This document shows positions 80 to 27,083 of a stretch of DNA of 40,787 bases, piece after piece. The DNA comes from a virus. How positions within the stretch are numbered: position 1 is the stretch's first letter; every line of letters begins with the position of its first letter. Made by a program: the position numbers and the translations under genes. The stretch is taken from the IMG/VR virus record IMGVR_UViG_3300038701_001502, positions 1-40,787 of that record; one strand, written 5' to 3'. A model generated the notes under the pieces. It was not told where the DNA came from. It saw nothing but the letters and a program-made list of their open reading frames with translations, and did not search any database.

Positions 80-1597
80 ATGGACAAACTTCTCGAACCC
101 ACTAAGGTTTATGAAATTGATGATGTGCTTGATAAAGTGCACGTTGATATTGACAACCAGTACAGTAAAAGTTTAAGCACTGACCTCGGTCTTGGTAAAA
201 ACATCGACCCTGTGTATAGCAACGGTGGGGAGAGTAAAGGGTTTAATTCTCTTGTCCGACTTCCTATTTTTCCTGAATGGTTCTTTACGGCTCGTATTGG
301 CCAGCCTCGTAAGATTAACTATGTTGAGATTCGTAACTTTGCTCAGTCTCCTTGGGTTCAAATGGTTATGAATGCTATTAAGAAACAATTGTTAGTTACT
401 GATTATCGGTTAACTAAAGTTGATGACCAAGACGAGAACGACTATATTGAAATGATTGATAAGGCTAATACATTCTTACGTAAAGTTAACGCTAATAAAG
501 AAACTATTAACCAACTATCCATGGAGGGTGTAACCGATATTTGTGAGATTGATGCATTAACTTGGACTAAAGTGTACAGTGTTGATAGTTATGAAATGAA
601 ACAAGTTGACGTGTATAACGACGTTGGTGATGTTGTTAGTACTGAAGAACGACCTGTTCTCAAACCTTTTGGTCAACGTAAACTTATGGAGTTGCGCAGT
701 GCAGACCCTGCTACTTTCTTAAAACAAATAGATATTTATAAAACTCTTACAGCCTTTTATCAGTACAGTTGGAAAAACCCACGCAGTAGTCCTGTTCGTT
801 TTGAACCTGATGAAATAGCTTATGCGATGCTTAACCCTCGTTCTTACAAAGTATATGGTTTTAGTCCTGTACAAGCTATCCAACAAGTATTAGAACTGTT
901 AATTCAAGCAACAAGGTACAATAAAGATTTCTTCAAGAACAATGCTATTCCAGATGCAATCATTGGGTTACCCTTGGCTGACCGTGACAGTCTTAATGAA
1001 TTTAAATCTTCTTGGAATCAAAGCCTTAAAGGTAAACCTCACAAGTTAGCATTCCATAATAGTGACGTTAAAGTTGAACATTTTAGTAAATCTAACAAAG
1101 ATATGGAATGGTTAGGTGGACAAAAATGGTACTTCCATTTAGTGTTTGCTGTGTTTGGTTTGAGTCCTCAAGAAGCCGGTTTTTATGAAGACAGTAACCG
1201 CAGTACTAGTGATTCTCAAGAACGTATTAGTGTACGTAATGCAATCAAACCGTTCTTTAAACTTATCGAAGACGTTCTTAATAATGATATTCTTCCTGAA
1301 CTGTTCCAACAAGAAAATCTTCCTATCAAGTTTGAATTCTATGCTCCAGACCATGTCGCTGAAAAGATAGAGTTTGAACAAAAGATGAAAGAAGTAGAAC
1401 TGGGCGCAATGACTGTTAATGAATACCGTGCTAGCCAAGGTCGTTCTCCTGTTGAATGGGGGGATGTGCCTGCTAACAAGACGGCAGAACCTGAAGAGTC
1501 TAGTGAAGCTTCTCCTGATAAAGTTGACGATAATAAACAAAAATCTTTTAGTTATTCTAAGGCTTTCGAGAGGTTTGTAGATAATGCCAGTGAGTAA
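80..1597 (+). CDS. portal protein
   Basis: Portal of a tailed virus: the dodecameric ring at one capsid vertex through which DNA is pumped. The 505-residue length fits. The C-terminal half has the family-like stretch with SPQEAGFYEDSNRST followed by a long helix with an ERISVRNAIKPF segment, and the N-terminal part has the usual helix-rich wing region. It opens the head operon, followed by a gpF-like head protein, protease and capsid protein. Start: ATGs exist at 68, 71 and 80; none has a Shine-Dalgarno. The ATG at 80 lies 31 nt from the TATA box start, as in the other leaderless genes, so I prefer it. Confidence 0.9.
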   Translation: MDKLLEPTKVYEIDDVLDKVHVDIDNQYSKSLSTDLGLGKNIDPVYSNGGESKGFNSLVRLPIFPEWFFTARIGQPRKINYVEIRNFAQSPWVQMVMNAIKKQLLVTDYRLTKVDDQDENDYIEMIDKANTFLRKVNANKETINQLSMEGVTDICEIDALTWTKVYSVDSYEMKQVDVYNDVGDVVSTEERPVLKPFGQRKLMELRSADPATFLKQIDIYKTLTAFYQYSWKNPRSSPVRFEPDEIAYAMLNPRSYKVYGFSPVQAIQQVLELLIQATRYNKDFFKNNAIPDAIIGLPLADRDSLNEFKSSWNQSLKGKPHKLAFHNSDVKVEHFSKSNKDMEWLGGQKWYFHLVFAVFGLSPQEAGFYEDSNRSTSDSQERISVRNAIKPFFKLIEDVLNNDILPELFQQENLPIKFEFYAPDHVAEKIEFEQKMKEVELGAMTVNEYRASQGRSPVEWGDVPANKTAEPEESSEASPDKVDDNKQKSFSYSKAFERFVDNASE

Positions 1598-2906
1598 TGA
1601 TAACAGGCAACCTACAACTGAAGAGTTAAATGATGTAAATCAGGATACTGTTCAGTGGGCTGCTAAAGCAAAACGAGTAATGAATGTTGATGGTACAGGA
1701 ACACCAATTTCAACAACCAATCCTATTTCGGTAAGAGAACAAAATACTAGACGTACTACTTTTGAAGAGTTTTTAGTTGCTACTCGTACTTCAAGGTTTA
1801 ACTTTAAACCAACATGGGGGGTTAGCGAGCTTAGAGACGTAGTTACTGAAACAGGTACAGGCGCTAGTGTTGGTGAGACTGGTGGAGAGTTTAAAGTTTC
1901 TACTGGTACAGCAACAGATAATGTTGCACAAATAGCTACTAAACAACGGGGGCAATACCAAGCAGGGACTCAAGGTGAGGCAGGCGTTGGTATTCGTATT
2001 CCCACAACCCCCACTGGCACACAGTTTGGAGAGTGGGGGTACTTTGATGACCAGAACGGTTTTGGGTTTGGTGTTGATGTAACAGGTATTTATGTGTTTA
2101 TTTTAGAGTCTGGTACAAAAACTAAAACGTATCAAGATAATTGGAACCTTGATAAAGTTGATGGCACAGGAGATAGTGGTGTTACTCTTGATTTAAGCGA
2201 CGGTAACATTTTTCAAATCGACTTTACTTGGTATGGTTATGGTGCTATAGAGTTCACTTTAAATACTACAGCTATTAATAGAAGTGTAGACTTACGAGTT
2301 CCTCTTCATGCTGTTACACAAACAGGAGAAGTAAGTGTTGTTGACCCTAACCAACCAGTTACTGTTCGTGCTGAGAACGGTGCAACTTCAGATACTAATT
2401 TTGATGTATATGTTGGTGGTCGCAATTTCTGTGTGGTTGATGGTATTAGTGAGCCACAAAAAAGAGATGTTCCTATAGAAGTAACAGGATTTTCAGTAAC
2501 TAGTACAAGTTTTGTAGCTGCAGCAGCTATTCGTAAAAAAACTACTTTTAATGGTCGAAATAACAGTGTTAATGTTCGTTTTCGAGATGTGCAAGTAAGT
2601 ACTGATAATCCAGTGATTATCAATGTTGACATAGGAGGTAGTGTGACTGGAGGAACATGGTCTTCTCCAAGCGATGTTCAATCAGCAGAAACTGCTATTG
2701 AAACGAATACAACATTTACTGGAGATACTGCCTATACTAGTGCTGGTAAATTCTTAGTTTCTAGTGATAAAAATACTCCTACAAACCAAGCATTTACCGA
2801 GAGTGTTATCGTCGGTGATACTGAAACATTAATTATTTACATTAAGAAAACAACAAATACTGATGCTGTTGTAGATTTAATTATTGACATTGAGGAAGAA
2901 TGGTAA
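1584..2906 (+). CDS. putative virion surface or head-fibre-like protein
   Basis: A 440-residue beta-rich protein with few charged clusters. Residues about 145-230 contain a GEWGYFDDQNGFGF motif and a WN.DK..G.G.SG..LD.S...IF.IDFTWYG pattern, a beta-sandwich signature I associate with structural proteins of marine phages and large DNA viruses. Its start overlaps the portal end by 14 nt in another frame, indicating translational coupling. Position between portal and the gpF-like gene is unusual for a fibre and suggests a capsid-associated component. Exact role is uncertain. Confidence 0.65.
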   Translation: MPVSNDNRQPTTEELNDVNQDTVQWAAKAKRVMNVDGTGTPISTTNPISVREQNTRRTTFEEFLVATRTSRFNFKPTWGVSELRDVVTETGTGASVGETGGEFKVSTGTATDNVAQIATKQRGQYQAGTQGEAGVGIRIPTTPTGTQFGEWGYFDDQNGFGFGVDVTGIYVFILESGTKTKTYQDNWNLDKVDGTGDSGVTLDLSDGNIFQIDFTWYGYGAIEFTLNTTAINRSVDLRVPLHAVTQTGEVSVVDPNQPVTVRAENGATSDTNFDVYVGGRNFCVVDGISEPQKRDVPIEVTGFSVTSTSFVAAAAIRKKTTFNGRNNSVNVRFRDVQVSTDNPVIINVDIGGSVTGGTWSSPSDVQSAETAIETNTTFTGDTAYTSAGKFLVSSDKNTPTNQAFTESVIVGDTETLIIYIKKTTNTDAVVDLIIDIEEEW

Positions 2907-3947
2907 ATGATATTTGAAATACAATTTAAAACATTTATGGACATGTACAAGAAAGATAAACAGTTCAGAGCTTGTGATTTATATTATAAAGAAAACAAGG
3001 ACAACTTTGAACTATACTTTCAATCACACAACCATATGGCACATAAAACCACAGTTAAACGTAGTACTATAGAAGCCTTTGGTGAATCTTACGGTGCAGA
3101 CGCTACTGACGCAGTGGAAGACTGGAAGGCAGACTATCTTAACGAAGCAATAGAATTAGAAGTCGAAGAGAAAGAAATAGAAACCGTTTATTTTTCCAAA
3201 AATGTCGATGCAGACTTTGTGATTGATGAGAGTACGCCTTATGATAATTTATACACTTCTATTGTAGACCAATGGGAAGAAAAGGTTATAGCTAATATTC
3301 CTAAATTACAAAAGATGCAGAAAGGATTTGGTGATTTTATATCATCAGTATTTAATACTATCAACACAAAGTCTTTCTTAACAGTACTTCGTAGAACTAT
3401 AAAAAACAGTGTTCTTGATGGTGTAAGTCAAGTTGAAGAAGAACAAAACACCCAAGTTGGTTTTACTTTTGGTATGAGTGAACGAGTAAAGGTTCTTGAG
3501 AACCAACAACTAAACGGTTACCGATTGCCAGACGGTAAAGCATGGCCAGGTATCAAGGGACAAACTAAAGAATTACAATTTAATATTTTAAAAAGTGTAG
3601 AAGAAGCAATCAAGAACAAAGAATCCAATGAATCTATTGCTGCTCGATTACGAGGAGATTTTAATCTTTCTAAGGTTAGTGCGGAGCGCACTGCAAGAAC
3701 AGAAACAACAAGGTTCATTAATGAAGGCAAATCAGCTAGCTATAAAGAAATTGGTATTGATGGAAAAATTTGCGAAGCTGTAGGAGACAATAAAACAAGT
3801 GAACTTTGTACCCGTTTATGGGACAAATACAAAGATAGTCCTATTGCTTTAGATGAACCATTTATTGATGATGTGACAGGTAAACAATTCTCTACACCAC
3901 CCTTCCATGTTAATTGTCGTTGCGTTATTGGTGGACGAAAATTATAA
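2907..3947 (+). CDS. Mu gpF-like head morphogenesis / minor head protein
   Basis: The C-terminal about 150 residues match the Mu gpF / SPP1 gp7 family: an ARTETTRFINEGK motif, then E.VGDN.TSELC..L, and a terminal PPFHVNCRC motif with paired cysteines. These proteins sit inside the procapsid near the portal and may help DNA ejection. The ATG directly follows the TAA of the previous gene (TAAATG), so translation is probably coupled. The N-terminal 200 residues are helical and unassigned. Confidence 0.88.
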   Translation: MIFEIQFKTFMDMYKKDKQFRACDLYYKENKDNFELYFQSHNHMAHKTTVKRSTIEAFGESYGADATDAVEDWKADYLNEAIELEVEEKEIETVYFSKNVDADFVIDESTPYDNLYTSIVDQWEEKVIANIPKLQKMQKGFGDFISSVFNTINTKSFLTVLRRTIKNSVLDGVSQVEEEQNTQVGFTFGMSERVKVLENQQLNGYRLPDGKAWPGIKGQTKELQFNILKSVEEAIKNKESNESIAARLRGDFNLSKVSAERTARTETTRFINEGKSASYKEIGIDGKICEAVGDNKTSELCTRLWDKYKDSPIALDEPFIDDVTGKQFSTPPFHVNCRCVIGGRKL

Positions 3948-23758: not shown

Positions 23759-25716
23759 TTCTTTTCACTCTCCATAAATGGTTGCATCTCATTGTACAAC
23801 TTTACTAAATCAATATCTGTTAAGGTTAGTTTAGCTTCCAACAGTTCTTCCACAGTACAATACTTAGAAGTCTTACCAGCACGACCAACTTTTCTATTTT
23901 TAATAAGATAAGCTACACCATCTTGTCCACCAAAATATCCTTGGCTAATTTGTGCCTGCAACTGACTAGGTTTCTTATACGACTTAGCTTCTTTAACCTT
24001 AAACTCTCTAGCAAGTAACTTGACGTTTTCAGGTTTATCTAAATATCTTTTAATAATAGATTTCATTTCTTCCTTTGGCATACTAGCATGTTGGTGTTCT
24101 AAAATATAAGGTTCAATTTCTTCTTTGTATAACTTTTTACCAAGAGCAGTTGCATTATCTTTAATGATAGGCAAGCCCGTGAGTTTTATTTTACCATCAG
24201 TTATATACAAATAATTCTTTTTAAGACCTTGATATGCTTTAACAAGCCGATTGGTTTTTACAGTATTACCCTCTTTATCTATTTTAGTTTTGTATATTTT
24301 ATTACCATCATCGTCTAACTTTGGTTGCAAACTAAAAGGCCACTTAACATAACTCAAATAATCCTCAATATCAATGTTATATGTATCAACAGGGAAAGGA
24401 ACGTTATCAGTAATCTTCTTAACAACCTTTTGTAAACATTCTCGTACATACCATTCTTCATTAGGAGTTCCAGAATGTGCAATTACAAAAATACTATCAG
24501 TATCTCCAGCAATAGTTTCAAACCCAAAGTCTTTCATCATATCTTCGGTTAAATGGTTAATCTGTTGACCTAACCAACAACAATCCCAACCACAGTTAGG
24601 TGTATAAACTTGTTCAAAGATAGGACTGCGTGCTGCACCATACAAGCTGTTCAAGAAAATCTTAACAGCGTACCGCTTAGGGTCATCCTTACTAAGAGTA
24701 GAACGAAGCACTAACTTTTTCTTAACATCCTCACACAAAGGGTGTGGTTGTGAAATATCATAATACCCTTTTACTTTGAACACATCATTACCATGCCAAA
24801 TTTTTAAATCATAACGATTACCAGGAGCGATGCCAACTTTATCAATTTCATCCTGTGTTATCTCAGCGAACAAATTAAACATAGCAAAAATGTGAGGATA
24901 CAAACTAGTAAAGTCTACGTACCAAACATTACGAGCTTCCTCGTACTTCGGTTGAATGACACGACCACCCATTTTTTCTTTCTCGCTGTCACCTTTTTCA
25001 CCGTACGTCTCAGGAACACCTAGCGTATGGCAAGCAGCCTTGTACGTTAAAGACGCAATACTGCTCTTAATCCAAGATAAATTTTTAACATTACTATCAC
25101 TAAGATATTCAGTGAATGGTAACCAGAAGTCCCAAACTTTCTCAAACATGTCTTTAGTAACCATAACATCAGCTTCTAAATATTTCTTGATGTCACTAAC
25201 TTCTTCGGGAGTATAATCATCTTTAAAGAAAATCATGTAATCGATGTCACCTTTTTGTACATCAAGTTGCATACCTTGAGCAATATTTCTTAAACTGTTA
25301 GTGCCAAACTTGTAACCCATAAGAGCTCCACGGTTCTTAAAAGGTAAACCATCATGACGCTTGTAAGCACTACTACCAAGAATAACAAGTAAGTCAACTT
25401 GTAAAAACTTACCTTCAGGTATTAAATCATTATTATAACAAATCGGTGTATCGAACTCTTCAGAATTAAACCCAATGAGAATTTTATGTTGACCAATAAA
25501 ATCTCTAATAGCTTCTTCATTACCGCGCACTAAGTCACCAATGTATCGGTCAAACTTATAACTGTACATACCAATCCATTTACACTTGGCATATTTAACA
25601 TAGTCTTCAAAGTTTGTTCTTATATCTACTGGTCTACCGTCTGGATATGATGAGCATGTCTCTATATCGAAAACAATTCCTTCTTTTTTTATATCTTCTA
25701 TTGTTGGTTGGTCCAT
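23755..25716 (-). CDS. family B DNA polymerase with 3'-5' exonuclease
   Basis: 653 residues. Exonuclease motifs: FDIET (Asp17, Glu19), IGFNSEEFD near 81-89, and YLEADVMVT with Asp183. Polymerase: DFTSLYP (motif A, 268-274), KIFLNSLYG (motif B, 352-360), and GDTDS (motif C, 404-408). It is short for family B, with a trimmed N-terminus and no recognised terminal-protein regions, and carries no intein. It is the likely replicative enzyme, encoded with ligase, methyltransferase and helicase. The N-terminus overlaps the methyltransferase end by 19 nt. Confidence 0.93.
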   Translation of the reverse strand: MDQPTIEDIKKEGIVFDIETCSSYPDGRPVDIRTNFEDYVKYAKCKWIGMYSYKFDRYIGDLVRGNEEAIRDFIGQHKILIGFNSEEFDTPICYNNDLIPEGKFLQVDLLVILGSSAYKRHDGLPFKNRGALMGYKFGTNSLRNIAQGMQLDVQKGDIDYMIFFKDDYTPEEVSDIKKYLEADVMVTKDMFEKVWDFWLPFTEYLSDSNVKNLSWIKSSIASLTYKAACHTLGVPETYGEKGDSEKEKMGGRVIQPKYEEARNVWYVDFTSLYPHIFAMFNLFAEITQDEIDKVGIAPGNRYDLKIWHGNDVFKVKGYYDISQPHPLCEDVKKKLVLRSTLSKDDPKRYAVKIFLNSLYGAARSPIFEQVYTPNCGWDCCWLGQQINHLTEDMMKDFGFETIAGDTDSIFVIAHSGTPNEEWYVRECLQKVVKKITDNVPFPVDTYNIDIEDYLSYVKWPFSLQPKLDDDGNKIYKTKIDKEGNTVKTNRLVKAYQGLKKNYLYITDGKIKLTGLPIIKDNATALGKKLYKEEIEPYILEHQHASMPKEEMKSIIKRYLDKPENVKLLAREFKVKEAKSYKKPSQLQAQISQGYFGGQDGVAYLIKNRKVGRAGKTSKYCTVEELLEAKLTLTDIDLVKLYNEMQPFMESEKK

Positions 25717-27083
25717 ATTATTTCCTCCATTATTGCCTGAACTACGTTGACTGTGACAGCGTTCCCCATTTGTTTGTACCTTTGTGTGTCGCTCATCATC
25801 TTACCATTATCTAGTTCAACTAAAGTCCAGTTGTCCTTAAATCCTTGTAATCGTTCACACTCTACAGGTGTCAGCTTACGAATACTAACTCCTTCTCTTA
25901 TGCCGCCTGTGTTCATACTGTCTACAGTAAAAGCATAATCTCCTTCTATTTGTTTCTGATTACGATTAAGAAACTTTAAAGGAACTCTTTGTGCTACCAT
26001 TTGTCTTCTTCCTTTATCTAGTCGGTTTGTTCCTTTGTGATAGTTGGCATCAAGGCTATACAAGACTTCTCGTCCAGTTTCAAGAGTATTTTGTTTGTTG
26101 CCTCTGTAGAGAGGAAATACTTTTGTTCGACCTCGCTCTCTAACACCTCCGATAATGAACACTCGCTCCCTGTTTTGTGGAACTCCGAAGTACCTTGAAT
26201 TAAGAACTCCCCATTCAACATTGTACCCCAATTCTTGAAGCGTACTGATGATTGTAAGGAAAGTTTTCCCTTTGTCGTGACTGAGTAAGCCTTTGACGTT
26301 TTCAAGCACACAATACTCAGGTCTTTTAGCTTTAAGGACTCTCGCAATTTCGAAGAACATAGTTCCTCGGGTATCGTCAAACCCTCTTCTATTACCCGCG
26401 ATACTGAATGCTTGGCAAGGAAAGCCTCCCACGAGCATATCAAAGTCTGGTAATTCTTCTGTATTAATCTTTGTTGCATCTCCATAGTTTTTGACTCCAC
26501 TAAATCTTTTTTTGAGAACTTGACTGCTGTACTTGTCCCATTCACAAACGCCAACACATATGGGCTTTCTGAACCTGTCAAAGTCGGCATTATACCTTTG
26601 GTGCTGTAGAGTCTCTTCGTCATCTCGTAAGACTGCTCTTTCTCCTCTATCTCCGTTACTGTTTTGTCGTAAGTCGTTGGAAATTTCAGTATTTGTTTTA
26701 ATTGCATCCAAACTTTTGGACTCGGAACTGCACGACTCTTGTCCGTTCGAAAATAATGCTCTACTTGAGTAATCGGCAGATTTAATTGTTGAGCTATCTC
26801 TTTGTTCGTTCCTTTCTTGTACTCCCTCAAGAATTGATTTATCTCCACAGGAGTGTCGTGAATTCTTTTCTTCACTGTTAAAGGCATATCCATAATCTTT
26901 ATTATCTTCATCTGTACCTCCAACACAAGAGGGAGATTTCCATGAGTTTCTTTTCTCAGTGTCGGTACTATTATTGTTGTTTTTAATATTTTCTTCACCC
27001 TTCCTTGAGGGTCTACTATCATGTGCTTGTTGTATTGCAATTTCAAATCCTCCTACTCCACTGAACATACTAAAAAATTTCAT
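25698..27083 (-). CDS. DNA cytosine-5 methyltransferase with long variable insert
   Basis: 461 residues. Motif I FSGVGGFE (residues 7-14), GVCEWDKYS (motif II, about 178-186), GGFPCQAFSIAG with catalytic Cys223 (motif IV), ENVKG (motif VI), QNRERVFI (motif VIII), and LTPVECERLQGF and QMGNAV (motifs IX-X). Residues about 21-173 are a low-complexity S, N, D, E, R-rich insert between motifs I and II; a second frame through this DNA appears protein-like (see 26018). The enzyme would methylate cytosine in a specific site to protect viral DNA or counter host restriction. Its ATG overlaps the helicase stop (ATGA). Confidence 0.9.
   Translation of the reverse strand: MKFFSMFSGVGGFEIAIQQAHDSRPSRKGEENIKNNNNSTDTEKRNSWKSPSCVGGTDEDNKDYGYAFNSEEKNSRHSCGDKSILEGVQERNEQRDSSTIKSADYSSRALFSNGQESCSSESKSLDAIKTNTEISNDLRQNSNGDRGERAVLRDDEETLQHQRYNADFDRFRKPICVGVCEWDKYSSQVLKKRFSGVKNYGDATKINTEELPDFDMLVGGFPCQAFSIAGNRRGFDDTRGTMFFEIARVLKAKRPEYCVLENVKGLLSHDKGKTFLTIISTLQELGYNVEWGVLNSRYFGVPQNRERVFIIGGVRERGRTKVFPLYRGNKQNTLETGREVLYSLDANYHKGTNRLDKGRRQMVAQRVPLKFLNRNQKQIEGDYAFTVDSMNTGGIREGVSIRKLTPVECERLQGFKDNWTLVELDNGKMMSDTQRYKQMGNAVTVNVVQAIMEEIIWTNQQ
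26018..27046 (-). CDS. overlapping frame with methyltransferase-associated segment
   Basis: A 342-codon open frame (TTG start) one base out of phase with the methyltransferase. Frame residues about 64-167 (26546-26857) read like a real domain: TPVEINQFLREYKK, TNKEIAQQLNLPITQVEHYF, SRAVPSPKVWMQLKQIL, and RLYSTKGIMPTLT. I remember this as a segment of other DNA methyltransferases (helix-turn-helix-like part, then a Y..G.APTLT-type motif). The methyltransferase frame here is low complexity. After about 26546 this frame looks random. The ribosome site AGGAGG lies just upstream (within motif I). Whether it is translated is unknown. Confidence 0.35.
   Translation of the reverse strand: MKLQYNKHMIVDPQGRVKKILKTTIIVPTLRKETHGNLPLVLEVQMKIIKIMDMPLTVKKRIHDTPVEINQFLREYKKGTNKEIAQQLNLPITQVEHYFRTDKSRAVPSPKVWMQLKQILKFPTTYDKTVTEIEEKEQSYEMTKRLYSTKGIMPTLTGSESPYVLAFVNGTSTAVKFSKKDLVESKTMEMQQRLIQKNYQTLICSWEAFLAKHSVSRVIEEGLTIPEELCSSKLRESLKLKDLSIVCLKTSKAYSVTTKGKLSLQSSVRFKNWGTMLNGEFLIQGTSEFHKTGSECSLSEVLESEVEQKYFLSTEATNKILLKLDEKSCIALMPTITKEQTD

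Follow-up and report, generated by a model that had tools for sequence, protein, structure and literature searches.

The methyltransferase gene at positions 25698–27083 of the IMG/VR virus record IMGVR_UViG_3300038701_001502 very probably encodes two proteins in overlapping frames. The whole 40.8-kb record (40,787 nucleotides) is called the window here, and all its features described below lie on the complement strand. The first protein is the methyltransferase, read in what we call frame 0. The second would be the product of ORF B, an overlapping open reading frame (ORF) of 342 codons that is read one base out of phase (+1) across 26018–27046, ends at a stop codon at 26018–26020, matches PHROG 16143 (2e-23) and has the marks of a conserved overlapping gene. 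We observed homology of the +1 product, frame specificity of that homology, selection on the +1 frame, conserved absence of +1 stop codons and enrichment of start codons.

The frame-0 product of 461 amino acids matched PF00145 (E=9.2e-75), with M.HhaI and M.HaeIII as its closest solved relatives. In an alignment with its relatives, motifs I, IV (PCQ), VI (ENV), VIII (QNRERV), IX and X were all found in one frame, identifying the enzyme as a C5-cytosine DNA methyltransferase. Motif I (MKFFSMFSGVGGFE; FSMFSGVGGFE) and motif II (CVGVCEWDKY) are separated by a 161-codon insert (26559–27041). Enzyme residues 15–175, which these motifs flank, are S/N/E/K-rich, in agreement with the original prediction, made from the window's sequence alone, that the enzyme frame is of low complexity here. 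The same prediction placed a second, methyltransferase-like frame at 26546–26857. That frame is present and is one base out of phase, as described, but its extent had been set too short, and +1 stays open all the way from 27046 down to 26018. ORF B thus spans motif I to beyond motif VIII and covers the catalytic core as well as the insert.

Translated in +1 from 26857 to 26573, the insert reads TPVEINQFLREYKK...EIAQQLNLPITQVEHYF...YSTKGIMPTLT, the ending that the prediction had associated with other DNA methyltransferases; the stretch also includes QVEHYFRTDKSRAVPSPKVW. In a tblastn search, this segment matched Pelagibacter phage methyltransferases and that of Bacillus phage CM1 (E 9e-15 to 3e-13). 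In Pelagibacter phage HTVC309P and in CM1, the matching module is read in the same frame as the enzyme and lies between motifs VIII and IX. Two of the window's relatives, L007 and L023, likewise carry this helix-turn-helix (HTH) module in the enzyme frame between the same motifs, and local BLAST aligned the window's +1 insert with the target-recognition domain (TRD) of L007 at 48.8% identity over 125 amino acids (E=1e-39). Judged by these homologies, the +1 segment (DTPVEINQ...MPTLTG; 26573–26857) is an HTH-type module of a C5-methyltransferase TRD with a putative role in recognition. The IMG/VR relative L006 (63% identical) and the genome relative L120 share the window's arrangement, with the module read in +1 and located between motifs I and II.

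To see how general this arrangement is, we gathered 32 + 80 viral and 80 bacterial or archaeal relatives, of which 114 were scored. Inserts of at least 20 codons occupied the window's insertion place in 70 of the 114. Their contents varied and included the HTH module, TEEAKxLRR..PREDxLANTIT, GTGPLxSKEHCFAxDR, APTxRAEHHNTA and others. The +1 translation of the insert matched in-frame TRDs of other methyltransferases in 50 of the 70 insert-bearing relatives, and no TRD match was found in the other five frames of any of the 70, indicating that the +1 reading of the insert is not due to chance.

Selection was then compared in the two frames. Ten relatives have a 59-codon insert. In the closest pairs among them, differences within the insert at frame-0 codon positions 1/2/3 numbered 9/3/0, 9/4/2, 12/5/2 and 4/1/0; the first 100 core codons gave 3/2/4, 3/2/9, 4/0/9 and 4/0/12. 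Summed over 21 same-length pairs, the differences were 386/142/82 in the insert and 4205/2108/8288 in part of the core, so that 63% of the changes in the insert fell at frame-0 position 1 and 57% of those in the core at position 3. Since the wobble base of a +1 codon falls at frame-0 position 1, the constraint on the insert is that of +1 coding, and the constraint on the core that of frame-0 coding. Between the HTH modules of the window and L006, we counted 31/20/50 differences at the three +1 codon positions; the two are 64% identical when translated in the TRD frame and 35% identical when translated in the enzyme frame. Since the modules of the window, L006 and L120 are divergent enough to have been captured separately, selection on the window's own insert is deduced from the relatives.

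The +1 frame is also preserved outside the insert. Across the catalytic core it was free of stop codons in 65 of 67 non-redundant insert-bearing relatives, whereas within-sequence synonymous shuffles, which preserve the enzyme sequence and codon usage, predicted 2.0 (maximum 5 in 200 rounds). Among insert-free relatives, 16 of 35 were stop-free in +1 over the whole core, compared with 0.8 expected. All 102 relatives together had 0.26 +1 stops per core, against 2.90 in the shuffles, and in the same relatives no stop deficit was found in the +2 frame or the three antisense frames of the core. The corresponding middle part of ORF B (26168–26578), overprinted on the catalytic core, is predicted to be disordered and appears to be kept stop-free by selection.

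Directly after motif VIII, the +1 translations of the 98 non-redundant relatives scored contained a variant of [SC]SLSDILEE.VD.KYFLS......L; two Leu residues were kept in 98/98, and E, Y and S in 96–97/98. Frame-0 third positions are almost fixed in this module while frame 0 itself varies, and codons 6–9 are constrained in both frames. In the window, the sequence is SLSEVLESEVEQKYFLS, with conservative +1 changes (I/V, D/E); the C-terminal module of ORF B, CSLSEVLESEVEQKYFLSTEATNKIL plus flanks (26081–26179), overlaps enzyme motif VIII and the early TRD (QNRERVFIIGGVRERGRTKVFPL). A hidden Markov model of the +1 module detected an in-frame counterpart, VGDILENKVDSKYFLSDKAW..GKGFGF, after motif VIII in L028, L030 and L031 (E about 2e-6), and the +1 module is therefore best read as a canonical early TRD shifted by one base. 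Selection was thus not confined to the enzyme frame. The patterns argue for purifying selection on both frames, seen for +1 in the insert, the stop avoidance and the post-motif VIII module, and for frame 0 in the position-3 bias of the core.

ORF B has several candidate start codons in the window: the frame opens with TTG at 27046, and TTG 27040 or ATG 27022 is more plausible. A Shine-Dalgarno-like AGGAGG (27049–27054), which the prediction had noted beside the frame's beginning, lies 8 nucleotides ahead of TTG 27040 and doubles as the GGA GGA (Gly-Gly) codons of motif I. Taking as expected start sites those directly after motif I (8 nucleotides behind GGAGG where present) or an ATG 19 nucleotides further on, we found a +1 start codon in 68 of 70 insert-bearing relatives versus 18 of 44 insert-free enzymes. 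The ATG at +19 was present in 42 of the 70 and in 0 of the 44.

AlphaFold2 models of the two products are consistent with this division of the sequence. In ORF B, residues of about 64–150, containing the HTH, mostly had a predicted local distance difference test (pLDDT) score >90, the middle (157–293) scored <50, and the C-terminal module about 80–89. In the enzyme, residues 26–170 had a pLDDT of about 25–35, and a folded state was predicted for motif I and the greater part of the catalytic core. One stretch of DNA is thus predicted to encode a folded domain in +1, as the N-terminal domain or domains of ORF B, and a floppy loop in frame 0. Foldseek gave weak matches of the ORF B HTH to the XRE/lambda-repressor-like proteins lambda repressor, C.Esp1396I and SinR (probability 0.9–0.99, but E>0.02), and a profile search with ORF B found no related solved structure.

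ORF B is distributed far beyond the window's family. PHROG 16143, which is named 'DNA methyltransferase', matched 39 of 39 ORF B proteins tested (best 1e-57); PF00145 matched 0 of the 39, indicating that, despite the PHROG name, they contain no catalytic domain. Searches with the +1 module returned 235 and 192 phage records. An ORF in +1 of the methyltransferase was present in each of those inspected, namely P1, Cronobacter JK004, Vibrio VpaJT_1, Sinorhizobium NV1.1.1, Caulobacter DMCA, gut Firmicutes phages, Pectobacterium MA12 and Mycobacterium JuicyJay. In phage P1 (AF234172), it is an unannotated conserved ORF inside dmt (L206, 2198–2686) that reads ...GESLMPNTSEWHNDADACLLSQVLEQTSIPQRYFLSSKACAGILRRGEKRRKSLPPLLQMALQSVAKA. 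Among 80 further viral contigs, 72 had the scored motif; it overlapped the methyltransferase frame with the tested landmarks in 61 and with some of them in 11, several of which are truncated where the locus ends or have one divergent landmark. The 43 non-redundant P1-like sequences contained 0 +1 stops in 110 codons, compared with 0.61 expected in each, and these ORFs mostly open with M-[QP]-[LS]-[TM] right behind the preceding stop. In Streptococcus phage P0092, both overlapping ORFs are annotated 'DNA methyltransferase', and gp45 (YP_010682126; L203, 1018–1437) is the overlapping ORF, without a catalytic domain. With a range from P1 to the archaeal Methanobacterium virus Drs3, ORF B lies within the methyltransferase genes of hundreds of phages and, judged by its evolution, behaves like a real gene. 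The overprinting that had been predicted thus gains support from purifying selection on +1 in the relatives and from conservation well outside the window's family, translation itself being our reading of these sequence patterns.

In Mycobacterium phage Thibault, an HNH gene splits the methyltransferase, and the C-terminus of ORF B persists as a separate gene, gp104 (L208, 1935–2180), the only standalone case among the ORF B homologues inspected.

Two explanations without a separate gene deserve weighing, and we consider both improbable. The first is programmed frameshifting, in which ribosomes would shift into +1 and back, reading the +1 islands into the enzyme and restoring a TRD module to its canonical order after motif VIII. 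The +1 module past motif VIII is indeed what canonical enzymes hold in frame at that place. However, two opposite shifts at two places would be required, and motif VIII codons 6–9 are constrained in both frames simultaneously. Nor would a local shift need +1 stop avoidance throughout the core or start codons enriched at the head of the insert, and the P1-like ORFs open with a near-constant ATG.

The second supposes that captured TRD DNA is merely tolerated, with the +1 frame unused and its conservation reflecting repeated recapture of, or gene conversion from, in-frame TRDs of other methyltransferases. In its favour, the mobility of TRD modules is clear, the same module being in frame in L007, L023 and the Pelagibacter phages, and the HTH modules of the window, L006 and L120 could have diverged while still in frame, before they were captured. 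Against this, very close pairs, in which insert and core are both about 92–97% identical, already show the +1 pattern; neither the scarcity of stops in the core nor the invariant +1 module past motif VIII belongs to the inserts; and the recognisable captures are all in +1. The selection in very close pairs likewise disfavours a silent TRD cassette kept for recombination. Microhomology at the TRD end (PHVLV in +1, PTCIG in frame 0) is a plausible cause of the junction's frame but leaves the other +1 evidence unexplained. An artefact, either of composition, since RNY-type codon bias in principle favours an open +1, or of frameshift errors in assembly, is largely refuted: shuffles with composition and codon usage kept gave 2.9 stops versus 0.26, ruling out a coincidence of codon bias, and the arrangement recurs in independently sequenced isolates including P1.

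Several points nevertheless weigh against an overlapping gene. Translation of ORF B by internal initiation is inferred from selection, and the pairwise counts are phylogenetically non-independent. The AGGAGG near the start would be dictated by motif I anyway. Just the 16 of 35 insert-free relatives are stop-free over the whole core, ORF B starting further downstream there, and the middle of ORF B that overprints the core is predicted to be disordered. Column entropy was dropped as a test of frame-specific selection because it was below expectation in every frame. Finally, the close relatives are mostly metagenome contigs; the isolates (P1, Streptococcus, Mycobacterium and Vibrio phages) share the ORF B core.

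Our preferred account remains that of an overlapping gene, ORF B, that would start inside the enzyme gene near or past motif I and end shortly beyond motif VIII. Because its C-terminal module is homologous to the canonical in-frame module after motif VIII, ORF B most likely arose by frame displacement of the early TRD and overprinting of the core. In the window's lineage, ORF B would then have gained N-terminal TRD domains, here the HTH, through methyltransferase TRD DNA inserted between motifs I and II. The insert would lie in +1 because ORF B is the frame that makes use of it, the enzyme bearing it as a disordered loop. The original prediction had also offered a captured methyltransferase fragment tolerated as an insert, which agrees with the in-frame module of other phage enzymes and with the predicted disorder of the insert's frame 0.

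The wider proposal is that phage C5-methyltransferase genes of a large family, P1 dmt among them, have a conserved, translated ORF B encoding a non-catalytic DNA-recognition protein, and that the host gene serves as a repeated landing site for new +1 TRDs, so that phages would obtain a second specificity protein that evolves separately, at hardly any cost in genome length; we would give this not quite an even chance. As to function, we suggest only tentatively, as a guess, that ORF B is a DNA-recognition protein without catalytic activity, acting together with the co-encoded methyltransferase or regulating it, by specificity in trans or autoregulation. This proposal is based on the recognisable parts of ORF B all being TRD, the swapping of its N-terminal module among relatives and its co-encoding with the enzyme. 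Alternatively, ORF B may act in autoregulation by its HTH form or in anti-restriction.

Some relatives showed further arrangements at these loci. The L007 phage contig carries two neighbouring C5-methyltransferase genes (1167–3555), with the HTH module in the TRD slot of the second. L041 (ORF B, 1538–2254) has an extra insertion of ~25 codons past motif II that by eye is TRD-like in +1 (NPKLQDYKPKTIAPVVIE), so that motifs I–II may not be the sole landing site for ORF B modules. In L146, a Candidatus Scalindua contig, a long insertion that is open in frame 0 lies in the methyltransferase core between KHF and the NFGDITE segment and is possibly another out-of-frame element. In L008 (2827–3231), and also in L009 and L010, the motif I–II insert is open in the enzyme frame and contains an endonuclease-like (HNH or endonuclease VII-like) ORF in +2, which matched Endonuclease_7 at E=0.003, under the Pfam cut-off.

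Long same-strand overlapping genes conserved over such divergence are seldom recognised in double-stranded DNA phages and are mostly missed by annotation. In a search of open-access full texts, we found no published description of ORF B. If ORF B is a gene, the annotation of hundreds of phage genomes, in which it is now unannotated or misnamed 'DNA methyltransferase', would change; an overprinted gene would have a route to ready-made domains via its host gene; and a phage source of extra methylation specificity or regulation would possibly be revealed. Because ORF B lies inside a well-studied enzyme class and in the standard laboratory phage P1, these proposals are directly testable.

Overprinting is a known phenomenon, as are out-of-frame inserts in phage methylases, and an overlapping gene of TRD modules, ranging from P1 to an archaeal virus, appears to be new. 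The nearest precedent is the ShiLan domain, an HNH endonuclease encoded out of frame within the DNA methylase of a mycobacteriophage (Arsenault et al. 2025, PMC11855218), which is a homing element in the third frame and is confined to an insert. In contrast, ORF B consists of TRD modules, is in +1, runs over the catalytic core and is conserved in insert-free enzymes too; no endonuclease match was found for the window's ORF B. The +2 ORF of L008–L010 does have a ShiLan-like arrangement and looks like another element of this type, in an unrelated phage. The in-frame TRDs of C5 methyltransferases (M.HhaI or the phage multispecific type; HTVC309P, CM1) contain modules homologous to those of ORF B (HTH; LSDILE..KYFLS), but hold them in the enzyme frame between motifs VIII and IX, whereas in the window they are in +1 and the HTH module lies between motifs I and II. 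The PHROG 16143 proteins and P0092 gp45 are themselves ORF B proteins; their annotation as methyltransferases is at odds with the absence of a catalytic domain and with their position, which overlaps that of the true enzyme in a different frame. Overprinted or embedded viral genes, in which a new protein arises in the second frame of an older gene (reviewed in PMC8227390), are of the same kind as ORF B, which would additionally take up ready-made domains through insertions into its host gene.

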